Shown one piece after another: positions 13,519 to 18,242 of a stretch of DNA of 64,000 bases. The notes under the pieces were generated by a model. That model was given only the letters and a program-made list of their open reading frames with translations. It had not been told where the DNA came from and searched no databases. Numbering within the stretch: the first letter of the stretch is position 1; each line of letters opens with the position of its first letter. This DNA is from a bacterium (GTDB lineage: Bacteria > Electryoneota > RPQS01): contig DASXUQ010000017.1 in the NCBI GenBank assembly GCA_036504735.1, forward strand, positions 97,349 through 161,348, in the 5' to 3' direction. Made by a program: the position numbers and the translations under genes.

Positions 13519-13947
13519 GCTCACACGCAGGCGTGTTTATTCAGGCACGCCCTGCTTTACATAAAACACCGCGCCGTGTCCCACGCTATCGTGGCCGCAC
13601 GGCACGCAGCGGCGAAGGCCGTTGCGAGGGTCCGGTTCGGGCGATATACACCCGGGCCGAACCCGCCGCACCTTATTATTTACTACTTTAGTTACTATAA
13701 AATGCCCGGTGCAGCGAAAGCCGAAATTCGTGAAGAAAACAACTCGATTATTGCCTGTCGTTTTCATCCTCTTTAACCGCCGGCTCAGGAGAAGTCAACA
13801 GGGGCGTCGATTTCCCAGATGAGTGTTGCGCACGGGGCCCGGCTCGGGACGCAGTGACGTTCGGACGGGCAGATGCGCCATGACATCGGCTGGCATTATT
13901 ATCCCTTTGGGGTCTGAATACTCGCGGCACTTGCAATTCTGGACAAA
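13519..13947. other. Intergenic region, 429 bases, hairpins but no gene
   Basis: There is a short hairpin (ACACG 13523-13527 with CGTGT 13532-13536) with a T-rich tail after the DUF6496-like gene. A second hairpin (GGTTCGG 13634-13640 with CCGAACC 13657-13663) precedes an AT-rich stretch. I recognise no RNA family and no coding frame. Confidence 0.5.
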
Positions 13948-13974
13948 ATGACATACCTTTTCAGCCTATGCTGA
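13948..13974 (+). promoter_or_regulatory. Possible eight-codon leader ORF overlapping the beta-helix gene start
   Basis: ATG at 13948 opens M-T-Y-L-F-S-L-C and stops at 13972-13974, overlapping the ATG at 13968 in another frame. It runs through the left arm of the hairpin at 13951-13984, so ribosomes reading it could open the stem. Its ribosome site is weak (GGA, 13941-13943). Confidence 0.3.
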
Positions 13975-13990
13975 AAAGGTATGTTTTTTT
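13951..13990 (+). terminator. Terminator-like hairpin containing the start codon of the beta-helix gene
   Basis: A perfect 15-bp stem (13951-13965 with 13970-13984), a four-base loop (CTAT) and a run of T (13984-13990). The ATG of the downstream gene (13968-13970) lies in the loop and the first base of the right arm. It may be an attenuator or a translational switch, or an ordinary terminator whose stem was recruited as the gene start. Confidence 0.65.
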
Positions 13991-15155
13991 ATCCCTGTTT
14001 GTAACAGGACTCGCTCTCAGTGCCCAGGCCGATATGTCTCTGGTCAGCGGCGATTTGCAGCAGGCGATCAACACGGCGGCGGATGGCGACACGCTGATTC
14101 TGACGCCGGGCCGCTATGTGGCCGAAGCCCATGCGTACACCGAGACATTGTGCGGCAATTGCCAGGAACAGCAGACCGAGGTGAAGGCCACATACGGTTT
14201 TGTGATTGACGCCAAGCGGCTCTATCTGCGCGCTCAGAAAAAATCCAGTCAGGTGATTCTGGACACACGCGCAGGCTACGGTATGCTGGTGCTGAACTCG
14301 CAGGGGACGGTGATCGAGAACATGACGATCACCGGCGGCGTGCGCGATGCGGACGGGCGGGCTACGGATGCAGCGGTGGTGGTGAAGGGATCCGCCGTTA
14401 CCTTGCGCCGCTGTCTGATCGGACCGAATAAAAATTTCAAGGATTCCACGATTATCGGTATCTGTGGCGTGGCGGTGCGGGAAGGCGGCGACGCGCGCAT
14501 CGAATATTGCATGATCAAAGGCAACTCGTGGGATGGCGTGGCGCTCTATCGCGGCGCAACGGCGCAGATCCACGATTGTGGCATTGATTCGGGGCGGGGA
14601 GTCGGCATTGGTGTGACGTGGGATGCCACGGCTATGGTGCTGCGCAACCGGATTTCCCACTACTGGAAGGGCATCGGTTCCTTCGGCACCGCGACCGTGA
14701 TTGCACGGAACAATACGGTGGTCGATAATCTCGGCTGGGGAATCATCGCCAGCGGAGCGAGCACGATGATTGCCGAGAACAACATCTCGGTCCACAACGG
14801 CAACTGCGGCATGGCGGTGTGGAACAAAGGCGCGCGCGGCCGCATGGTCAACAACATCTTAGCCTTCAACGGCTGGCGCAAAGAGTGGGTATGTCCTTGC
14901 GTCGGCTTCTGGAATCAGGAGAGCGATACCGCCGGCTGGGTGATCTCCCACAACATCGTCTGGGATAACGGCGCGGGCAATGTGCGCAGTGTGGACTCGG
15001 CCATGTTCATAGCGGCGGATCCGCAGTTCGCCGATTCCGTGAAGTACGTCCCCAGGGCGGCGGCAATCAAGGACGGCGATCCGGATCTTTCGAATCCGGA
15101 TGGCACGCGTTCGGTGATCGGTATTTATGGGGGACCGCAGGCGAAGAAGCCTTGA
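13968..15155 (+). CDS. Exported right-handed beta-helix (pectate-lyase fold) protein
   Basis: A 395-residue protein with a typical signal peptide (YVFLSLFVTGLALSAQA). The remainder consists of successive parallel beta-helix rungs with the patterns IENMTITGG, LRRCLIG, IEYCMIKGNSWDGVAL, NNTVVDNLGWGIIASG and NNISVHNGNCGM, like the NosD/DUF1565 group. Such proteins are often polysaccharide lyases or cell-surface proteins, but I see no catalytic residues that fix an activity. ATG at 13968 is the only start that gives the signal peptide. It lies in the loop of a perfect hairpin and has no clear Shine-Dalgarno, so translation is probably coupled or controlled. A terminator follows at 15190. Confidence 0.82.
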   Translation: MLKRYVFLSLFVTGLALSAQADMSLVSGDLQQAINTAADGDTLILTPGRYVAEAHAYTETLCGNCQEQQTEVKATYGFVIDAKRLYLRAQKKSSQVILDTRAGYGMLVLNSQGTVIENMTITGGVRDADGRATDAAVVVKGSAVTLRRCLIGPNKNFKDSTIIGICGVAVREGGDARIEYCMIKGNSWDGVALYRGATAQIHDCGIDSGRGVGIGVTWDATAMVLRNRISHYWKGIGSFGTATVIARNNTVVDNLGWGIIASGASTMIAENNISVHNGNCGMAVWNKGARGRMVNNILAFNGWRKEWVCPCVGFWNQESDTAGWVISHNIVWDNGAGNVRSVDSAMFIAADPQFADSVKYVPRAAAIKDGDPDLSNPDGTRSVIGIYGGPQAKKP

Positions 15156-15179: not shown

Positions 15180-15189
15180 CAGAGGTGTG

Positions 15190-15220
15190 CGGGCGAACCC
15201 AAGGTTCGCCCGTTTCTTGT
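15190..15220 (+). terminator. Intrinsic terminator after the beta-helix gene
   Basis: A 10-bp perfect stem (CGGGCGAACC 15190-15199 with GGTTCGCCCG 15203-15212), a three-base loop and a TTTCTTGT tail. Confidence 0.75.
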
Positions 15221-15226
15221 ATCGCT

Positions 15227-16720
15227 CTATTTGAGCAGCAGCATTTTTTGGATGGCGGTGAAGCGGACGGCGCGGAGGCGGCAGAGATAGATTCCGGAAG
15301 GGAGCTGGCTGCCGTCGAATGTCACCGCGTGATGTCCGGCGGCTTCGGCGCCATGCGCGAGGGTGGCGACGCGCTGCCCGAAGATGTTGTACACTCCGAG
15401 GTCTACCGGTCCTGTTGATGCGAGGTCAAAGGAAACTTGCGTAACGGGATTGAAGGGATTCGGATTATTGGCGTAGAGCCGGAAGCCTGTAGGCGGATCG
15501 TCCCGCGCCGATCCCGTCGATGTGGCGCGGGGAACAATCTTGAACACGCTCCCTTGATTCAGATCACAGATGTAGAGTTCGCCCTGCGCATCCTCGCCGA
15601 AAGAAGAGATCGCCTGAATGGTTTGTCCACCTCCCGGAGCAAGTTCCGCGGTGCGTTCCTGAAAGTCGGACTGCTGACCGTTTTGATAACGGAAGGACCA
15701 GATGCGGGCGGAGCAGTAGTCGGCAAAGAAGTAGGTGCCGGCAAGATCGGGGATAGCCGAGCCGCGATAGACATAGCCTCCGGTGATGGAGCAGCCGACA
15801 TTGTGGCCGTACTCATGGATCGGATGCACCAATCCACCGGGATCGCAGTTCTGCGGCGGATTGTAGCAATGATTGCCTTCCATCAGCCGCCAGCCATAAT
15901 TTTGCAGGCCGCGCACATTGGCCGGCTGAACATCCACTTCTTCCCAGCGGTCTTGTCCGACGTCGCCGATATACAGATCGTGTGTTTGCCGGTCGAAGCT
16001 GAAGCGCCACGGGTTGCGCAATCCCTTGGCCCAGATCTCGGGGCGACCTTCCTGCGAATTGGCGAAGGGGTTATCCGGCGGGATGGCATAGGGCGAGCCT
16101 TGATGCACATCTATCCGCAGCAGCTTACCCAGCAGCGTGGTATCGCTCTGTGCACGGTTGCCGGGATCGCCGCCGCTGCCGCCGTCTCCGGTGCCGAAGT
16201 AAAAGAAGCCATCGGGACCGAAGGTGATCATGCCACCGTTGTGGTTTTGATAGGGGTGGGGAATGGTCAGCAGAATTTGAGCGCTGGCGGGGTCGGCGTT
16301 GTCACTGTTGGTGGCATGATAGCGGGAAATCACAATCCAGCCATCGCCGCCGCGAGTGTAGTAGATGTAGAAAGTTCCGTTGGCGGAAAATTGTGGATCG
16401 AAAGCCAGACCCAGCAGTCCCTGCTCCACGTAGCCGGTTTCAACAAGCGAACGGACATCCAGAAAGGTCCCGCTGATCTGGCCGTTCTGCAGGACTTTGA
16501 TTCGGCCTCCGCGTTCCACGATATAGAGACGTCCCGCATCTCCGGGAGCATACGTGATAAACAGAGGCTGCTGCAGTCCGGTTGCCACGCGAACCGTCGT
16601 AATGGCACTGGCAGTGGGTGCCAGAAGCCAAGACGCCAGAATGCCCAGAAGCCAAAGTGAAGGCATAAGACTCATGGCGTGAAACTTGAAAGACCTAACA
16701 ATCGGGCTTCTCGGATTCAT
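15227..16720 (-). CDS. PQQ-type glucose/sorbosone dehydrogenase homologue with C-terminal sorting domain
   Basis: A 497-residue exported protein. ATG at 16720 has GAAGGAG at a normal distance; the frame is open further upstream without a ribosome site. After the signal peptide (ending PTASA) comes the six-bladed GSDH propeller, about residues 35-400. Typical signatures are EQGLLGLAFDPQF, the HNGG and GDGGSGGDPGNRAQ loops, KGLRNPWRFSFD and IGDVGQDRWEEVD. The last 80 residues form a Y-N-P-F-N-P type sorting domain (NNPNPFNPVTQVSF to QKMLLLK), used for secretion or surface anchoring in FCB bacteria. It lies ten bases downstream of a paralogue with the same core. The expected role is periplasmic sugar or aldose oxidation; substrate unknown. 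Confidence 0.88.
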   Translation of the reverse strand: MNPRSPIVRSFKFHAMSLMPSLWLLGILASWLLAPTASAITTVRVATGLQQPLFITYAPGDAGRLYIVERGGRIKVLQNGQISGTFLDVRSLVETGYVEQGLLGLAFDPQFSANGTFYIYYTRGGDGWIVISRYHATNSDNADPASAQILLTIPHPYQNHNGGMITFGPDGFFYFGTGDGGSGGDPGNRAQSDTTLLGKLLRIDVHQGSPYAIPPDNPFANSQEGRPEIWAKGLRNPWRFSFDRQTHDLYIGDVGQDRWEEVDVQPANVRGLQNYGWRLMEGNHCYNPPQNCDPGGLVHPIHEYGHNVGCSITGGYVYRGSAIPDLAGTYFFADYCSARIWSFRYQNGQQSDFQERTAELAPGGGQTIQAISSFGEDAQGELYICDLNQGSVFKIVPRATSTGSARDDPPTGFRLYANNPNPFNPVTQVSFDLASTGPVDLGVYNIFGQRVATLAHGAEAAGHHAVTFDGSQLPSGIYLCRLRAVRFTAIQKMLLLK

Positions 16721-16730
16721 GGCTTCTCCT

Positions 16731-18242
16731 TCACGGGCAGACGGCGGTAACGAGGTAAAAGTAACGGTCAGAGGCGGCAATGGCACCGGAATCGGCAAAG
16801 GATGCAGCAGTCAGACCGGCTGCGATCTGCGCCCAGCCCGGACCGGGGAAGGGTGCGTCGACGGAGGTGGCTCGATAAACCGTGTAGGTCTCGAGTCCGC
16901 CGCCGACTGTCCAATTCAGCAGCAGGTCATTTCCCGATGGCTGCGCCGTCAGGTCCTGCACGGTGGCAGCGACACATTCGCATTCATCGGGGATGCCGTT
17001 ATGATTGGCGTCACGGCTGAACCCTGCGGCAATATCGCAGGCGTCGGCGCGGCCATTGTGGTTGCAGTCGACAGGGTTGTCCGGCAGGATTTTGAAAACC
17101 TCACCGCCGTCTAAATCGCAGATGTAAAGTTCTCCGAGGGCGTCTTGCCCAAAAGAAGAGATGCTGGTGATGGACAGGCCGCCACTCGGGGCCAGTTCTG
17201 CCGTACGCTCCTGAAAATCGGTGACTGTGCCGTTCACATAGCGAAAACTCCAGATCTGGTTGCTGCAAAAATCCGCAAAGAAATAGGTGCCCTGCAACGC
17301 GGAATCGGCGCAGCCACGATACACATAGCCTCCGGTGATGGCGCATTTGCCGCCGCTGTGGTCATAGTTGTAGATAGGCAAGGTCAGCGCGGGATCATTG
17401 CAGGTGCAGCCGGAGAGTCCGGTGCAGTGCAACCCCTCCATGCATCTCCAGCCGTAATTTTCCCCGCCCGGGCTGCCGGCCGCCTGCACATCAATCTCTT
17501 CCCAGGCTCCCTGTCCGACATCTCCGATGTACAGATCATGGGTGGCCCGGTCGAAGCTCCACCGCCAGGGATTCCGCAACCCCTTGGCCCAGATCTCATG
17601 CCGCACGGCCCACGGATTTGTCGGCGGAATGGCATAAGGGAAGGCGCTGTCCACATCGATTCGCAGCAGCTTGCCTAAGAGCGTCGTATCACTTTGGGCA
17701 CGATTCCCCGGGTCATTGGCATCCCCGCCGTCTCCCATGCCGATGTACAGGTAGCCGTCATTCCCGAAGGCCAGATTCCCGCCATTGTGATTGGCGAATG
17801 GCTGAGGTATGGTCAGGATCGTCTGTCCGCTGGCCGCGTCGGCGCTGTCCGGGTCGCTGGACACATGAAACCGCGCAATGACCGTTGCGCCGTCGCTGCT
17901 TCGGGTATAGTTGACGAAGAAGTAGCCGTTTGTAGCATAATTCGGATGAAAGGCCAGCCCGAGGAGGCCCTGCTCGCTGCCTGTGGCAAGGTTGGGCACG
18001 CTAAGAAATGGCCGGGACAGGACCGAACTGTTGCGCTCGATCCGAATTGCGCCCGTGCTGCCACTCCTCTGTTCGACGATGAATATCCTCGCGGTATCGC
18101 CCAACGGGGCCGTTACCAGGACGGGCCGCGACAGCCCGGAGGCGACGCGAATGGTGTGAGAAGCTTGGGCGGGAGTGATCTTCAATAGACAAATGACTAA
18201 GTAAGCACAGGTTAAAAGTTGTCCCAAATAAGGTCGTTGCAT
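16731..18242 (-). CDS. PQQ-type glucose/sorbosone dehydrogenase homologue with calcium-binding and FN3 tail
   Basis: A 503-residue exported protein, first gene of a two-gene unit. The ATG at 18242 has AAAGGAG at six bases. The signal peptide ends QASH. The GSDH propeller carries the same signatures as the next gene: EQGLLGLAFHPNY, NHNGGNLAFG, GDGGDANDPGNRAQ, KGLRNPWRWSFD and IGDVGQGAWEEID. The tail differs: instead of a sorting domain there are two calcium-binding-like repeats (DCNHNGRADACDI and DANHNGIPDECE, dockerin or thrombospondin type 3 pattern), followed by an FN3-like module. The two paralogues therefore share a catalytic core but not an attachment module. Conserved cysteines in the blades are shared. 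Confidence 0.88.
   Translation of the reverse strand: MQRPYLGQLLTCAYLVICLLKITPAQASHTIRVASGLSRPVLVTAPLGDTARIFIVEQRSGSTGAIRIERNSSVLSRPFLSVPNLATGSEQGLLGLAFHPNYATNGYFFVNYTRSSDGATVIARFHVSSDPDSADAASGQTILTIPQPFANHNGGNLAFGNDGYLYIGMGDGGDANDPGNRAQSDTTLLGKLLRIDVDSAFPYAIPPTNPWAVRHEIWAKGLRNPWRWSFDRATHDLYIGDVGQGAWEEIDVQAAGSPGGENYGWRCMEGLHCTGLSGCTCNDPALTLPIYNYDHSGGKCAITGGYVYRGCADSALQGTYFFADFCSNQIWSFRYVNGTVTDFQERTAELAPSGGLSITSISSFGQDALGELYICDLDGGEVFKILPDNPVDCNHNGRADACDIAAGFSRDANHNGIPDECECVAATVQDLTAQPSGNDLLLNWTVGGGLETYTVYRATSVDAPFPGPGWAQIAAGLTAASFADSGAIAASDRYFYLVTAVCP

Follow-up and report, generated by a model that had tools for sequence, protein, structure and literature searches.

The systems described so far that come closest to the locus reported here are (i) intrinsic (Rho-independent) terminators located near coding starts; (ii) ribosome-mediated attenuators of the pyrBI, trp and bmrCD type; and (iii) hairpins generated by template switching, a documented route to perfect stems (PMC8794818). 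In E. coli, the first 100 bp of a coding region can harbour terminators that work efficiently, while ribosomes that travel very close behind the polymerase repress terminators; full termination needs, in addition, a certain distance between stop codon and terminator (PMC4824070). Since both termination within a coding start and its repression by ribosomes have been seen in that species, both are physically possible.

The locus belongs to a 4.16-Mb draft, metagenome-assembled genome (G000) and lies on contig C17, in a stretch of 64,000 nucleotides that was analyzed as a whole (hereafter, the window). In this locus, the start codon of a gene for a secreted protein is enclosed by a hairpin with the form of an intrinsic terminator. 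The following features can be differentiated around it:

13968-15155, plus strand: gene for a secreted right-handed beta-helix protein of 395 amino acids (Pfam PF13229, 1e-18) with the signal peptide MLKRYVFLSLFVTGLALSAQA
13950-13985, plus strand: perfect hairpin of 15 Watson-Crick pairs and one G:U pair, from sequence and folding
13984-13990, plus strand: tract of seven T's which forms codons 6-8 of the beta-helix gene and is placed as in a canonical intrinsic terminator
13941-13994, no strand assigned: extended inverted repeat with imperfect arms of 25 nt each, 88% complementary
15189-15213, plus strand: terminator-like hairpin 3' of the beta-helix gene, at the position usual for this genome

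The arms of the stem, ACATACCTTTTCAGC (13951-13965) and GCTGAAAAGGTATGT (13970-13984), are separated by a loop of 4 nt (CTAT, 13966-13969), and the G:U pair 13950/13985 brings the stem to 16 bp, of which only 6 are G:C. With 16 pairs, a loop of 4 and a U run on the sense strand, the segment 13950-13990 has the intrinsic-terminator form. By RNA folding, the 81 nt from 13930 to 14010 reach -33.6 kcal/mol (z -7.8; no shuffled sequence folded as well) and the 16-bp hairpin by itself -23.0 kcal/mol. Sequence and fold thus agree with an earlier reading of the sequence alone (the sequence-only reading), which had described a perfect 15-bp stem with a T tract around the beta-helix ATG. The arms of the extended repeat (13941-13965 and 13970-13994) differ from full complementarity by three mismatches; at this length the repeat also takes in the T tract, part of which pairs with an A tract.

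The beta-helix ATG occupies 13968-13970, with its A and T in the loop and its G paired. Position 13968 is very probably the true start of the gene, because the signal peptide, judged by eye to be a good one, needs it. Two other ways of placing the start were discarded: (i) a mis-annotated start further upstream, given that the frame contains no ATG, GTG or TTG from the upstream stop codon down to 13968; and (ii) a start at the next in-frame ATG (codon 22 or 23), which would lose the signal peptide that relatives keep here. In family orthologs, too, start region and signal peptide come at about this position. In fold stability, the 63-nt start region of the gene ranks 8th among 1076 genes. Beyond the 3' hairpin of the beta-helix gene, two neighbouring genes on the minus strand (15227-18242) encode secreted proteins that resemble each other in sequence. 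The first has a match to PF07995 (glucose/sorbosone dehydrogenase family) and a C-terminal sorting-type tail; the second, by eye, looks like its paralogue.

No Shine-Dalgarno-like ribosome-binding site was seen 5' of 13968, as would suit a leaderless or nearly leaderless mRNA. Its promoter would be TTGCAA (13931), a spacer of 17 and TACCTT (13954-13959), with transcription starting at about 13966-13968; the left arm would then never be part of the gene's own mRNA, and the palindrome would serve solely as a DNA operator or in transcripts arriving from upstream. By eye, one ortholog (L008) shows a similar arrangement, TTGCGT-17-TAGATT-7-ATG. However, the hexamer matches are weak, a promoter scan found none here, and Shine-Dalgarno sites are used at a fraction of this genome's genes. 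There is, moreover, no genome-wide peak of -10 motifs near start codons, an absence that rules out leaderless initiation as a genome-wide habit. For this gene alone, we regard a leaderless start as distinctly unlikely.

The genome itself provides the background against which the hairpin has to be read. A census of long hairpins in 1.6 Mb of stretches from it, with gene models from our own open reading frame (ORF) heuristic, not a trained gene finder, yielded 116 perfect stems of at least 11 bp. In 2.4 Mb of first-order Markov sequence matched to the genome in dinucleotide content, not one perfect stem reached 12 bp and, in consequence, the 15-bp stem at 13951-13984 is not due to chance. The great majority of the long hairpins are found close to 3' ends: for 96 of the 116, the distance to the end of a gene is at most 120 nt, and the positions peak sharply at 20-29 nt past the stop codon (52 in that bin), a spacing that resembles the distance for full termination in E. 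coli (PMC4824070). Only 2 of the 116 were flagged over a gene start; as the second one lies 3' of a tRNA gene, the hairpin at 13950-13985 is the only sampled one over a convincing start codon. In the census, moreover, few stems are AT-rich as this one is, and its T tract is among the longer ones. Near first ATGs, two more strong folds were set aside, for they look like terminators of upstream genes beside over-extended ORFs. A repeat family or mobile element was likewise rejected as the source of the stem: the genome has a single copy of it, and 38 other genomes of the phylum, when searched, yielded none.

Other hairpins of this genome deserve mention in their own right. Its long perfect hairpins (11-18 bp), for instance those at C17:55278-55315, C17:364354-364394 and C5:368876-368910, in many cases have no T tract past the stem. 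A palindrome, ATTCCGTTCCG...CGGAACGGAAT, recurs at C17:173137-173161, C5:794990-795014 and C9:228367-228392, in places with TTTGTC/GACAAA flanks, and looks like a dispersed palindromic repeat.

Since 96 of the 116 hairpins lie near 3' ends and one more follows a tRNA gene, marking 3' ends is the usual role of such hairpins here. The hairpin might, by the same token, mark the end of a short, unannotated RNA or mini-gene transcribed from 13520-13949, with beta-helix transcription starting separately close by. The stretch that would have to encode it is the following:

13519-13949, plus strand: upstream intergenic stretch, not conserved and with no Rfam match

Inspected by eye, this stretch contains an AT-rich part with TATAAA at about 13697 and a 14-codon ORF ending at 13917. 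Nevertheless, its lack of conservation and of an Rfam match speaks against such an RNA, no noteworthy ORF has its end at 20-30 nt before the hairpin, and scanning the stretch for promoters gave nothing. An upstream RNA is, for these reasons, a possible but rather unlikely explanation. The 14-codon ORF (MRHDIGWHYYPFGV, 13873-13917) is aromatic-rich, ends 33 nt before the hairpin and is probably a product of chance. In the window, Rfam 15 gave no match above the gathering score, and a permissive search returned only chance microRNA-like hairpin matches; a riboswitch or other known structured RNA was rejected on this ground.

The head of the gene contains one more element:

13948-13974, plus strand: eight-codon ORF MTYLFSLC*, overlapping the beta-helix ATG; probably incidental

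This ORF reads ATG ACA TAC CTT TTC AGC CTA TGC TGA and ends across the beta-helix ATG, just as the sequence-only reading had described, and on it that reading had built a compact attenuator or translation switch. In such a switch, translation of MTYLFSLC would open the left arm, block termination and pass ribosomes on to the overlapping ATG. The geometry fits: the leader begins at the stem base and stops 4 nt past the ATG, and in E. coli ribosomes very near a terminator do repress it (PMC4824070). Leader translation, if it occurs, could physically disturb the stem. But an ATG-started ORF of at least 5 codons ends at the gene start in 183 of 1076 genes (17%), a figure that rises to 375 of 1076 (35%) when GTG and TTG starts are counted too, and the leader is within chance expectation. 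Upstream of its ATG there is only a GGA, 4 nt away, a weak match that makes no clear Shine-Dalgarno site, and none of its codons (M T Y L F S L C) is a regulatory one. Within 550 nt upstream, the longest complement to either arm is 6 nt, so that no antiterminator was found. A ribosome-controlled attenuator or switch is therefore unlikely. A variant that does without an antiterminator, in which one hairpin is both terminator and start-codon lid and is opened when translation of the eight codons hands the ribosome on, we consider improbable.

Orthologs of the beta-helix gene, 57-67% identical in protein sequence, were found in 4 of the 10 other family genomes; order and phylum contain further, more distant ones. 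At 13 ortholog starts (45 nt either side), the longest perfect stem is of 4-7 bp vs 15 bp here, the assigned starts of a few of the most distant ones being uncertain. At the readable ortholog starts of family and order, a set with no genome of the same genus, the hairpin is absent, the sequence is unrelated and, hence, no conserved or covarying stem is seen; the upstream DNA cannot be aligned to the locus, even for the nearest ortholog (65% identical in protein sequence). By eye, Shine-Dalgarno sites are mostly present at the distant orthologs and absent at several family members. Judging from these sequences, the hairpin appears to occur in one lineage only. Relatives without the stem were what the sequence-only reading itself had named as evidence against its switch, and at the family level this is what the readable starts show. 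In any case, its account of a terminator-like anatomy and a buried start codon stands; the switch found no support in the tests run.

A hairpin that occurs once, in a draft assembly, and that no second genome carries might also be a false inverted repeat, produced by assembly or amplification in a metagenome-assembled genome. However, the hairpin lies on a contig of 414 kb, with no damage to reading frame, signal peptide or T tract, and the outer arms contain mismatches, as in an aged repeat; an artefact is, accordingly, highly improbable.

The reading we favour, although tentatively and with somewhat less than even confidence, is that of a lineage-specific inverted repeat which acts as a constitutive terminator and start-codon occluder, and which perhaps arose by template switching. 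A constitutive dampener or insulator is preferred because the further requirements of an attenuator were not seen: (i) antiterminator; (ii) regulatory codons; (iii) a good ribosome-binding site for the leader; and (iv) conservation. In its favour, stem, loop and T tract follow one another in terminator order, 13968 has no ribosome-binding site and relatives lack the hairpin. We infer termination, reduced translation and a mutational origin, as follows. In any transcript begun upstream, the repeat over the beta-helix start would fold into an intrinsic-terminator-like hairpin, and an RNA polymerase without a closely trailing ribosome would tend to stop in codons 6-8 of the beta-helix gene. Where transcription continues past the hairpin, the AUG and the bases around it would be kept inside the stem. 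The net result would be a beta-helix gene constitutively dampened and insulated from upstream transcription, with no switch controlled by a ligand or a peptide. Against this reading, a strong terminator at a gene's own start is costly and should be lost unless expression is of low value or is rescued.

As regards origin, the repeat may be recent: through a brief template switch during replication, a reverse-complement copy of the first codons may have taken the place of the ancestral sequence upstream of the gene. The reverse-complement similarity runs 10 bp past the perfect stem (7 of 10 positions match), which fits template switching, although with marginal significance (permutation p about 0.03) in surroundings rich in A/T. 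The right-arm codons AGG and TTA are rare inside this genome's genes (4% and 2%); as they are commoner among early codons (11% and 9%), they give no verdict on which arm came first.

If the hairpin does terminate transcription, the locus would be a clear-cut example from nature of a start codon lying inside a terminator, as well as a candidate for a single mutation event that silences or tunes a gene. If it is a mere accident, it would serve as a caution: striking hairpins seen in a single genome need relatives before a switch is claimed.

Compared with known systems, the locus resembles intrinsic terminators near coding starts in its perfect stem, 4-nt loop and sense-strand T tract; it differs in that the start codon lies within the stem, which is AT-rich (6 of 16 pairs G:C), and termination here is a prediction. 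With the attenuators of the pyrBI, trp and bmrCD type it shares a gene head where a short ORF and a terminator-like hairpin overlap, whereas antiterminator, regulatory codons and clear ribosome-binding site are lacking and the ORF is at chance level. Like template-switch hairpins (PMC8794818), it presents a perfect reverse-complement copy of adjacent sequence in one lineage only, but the relatives compared are too distant to show the ancestral state. Finally, the 3'-end hairpins of the same genome also have long perfect stems and short loops; while these typically lie 20-29 nt after a stop codon, the hairpin described here lies over a start codon, is AT-rich and has a T tract longer than that of nearly all the others.
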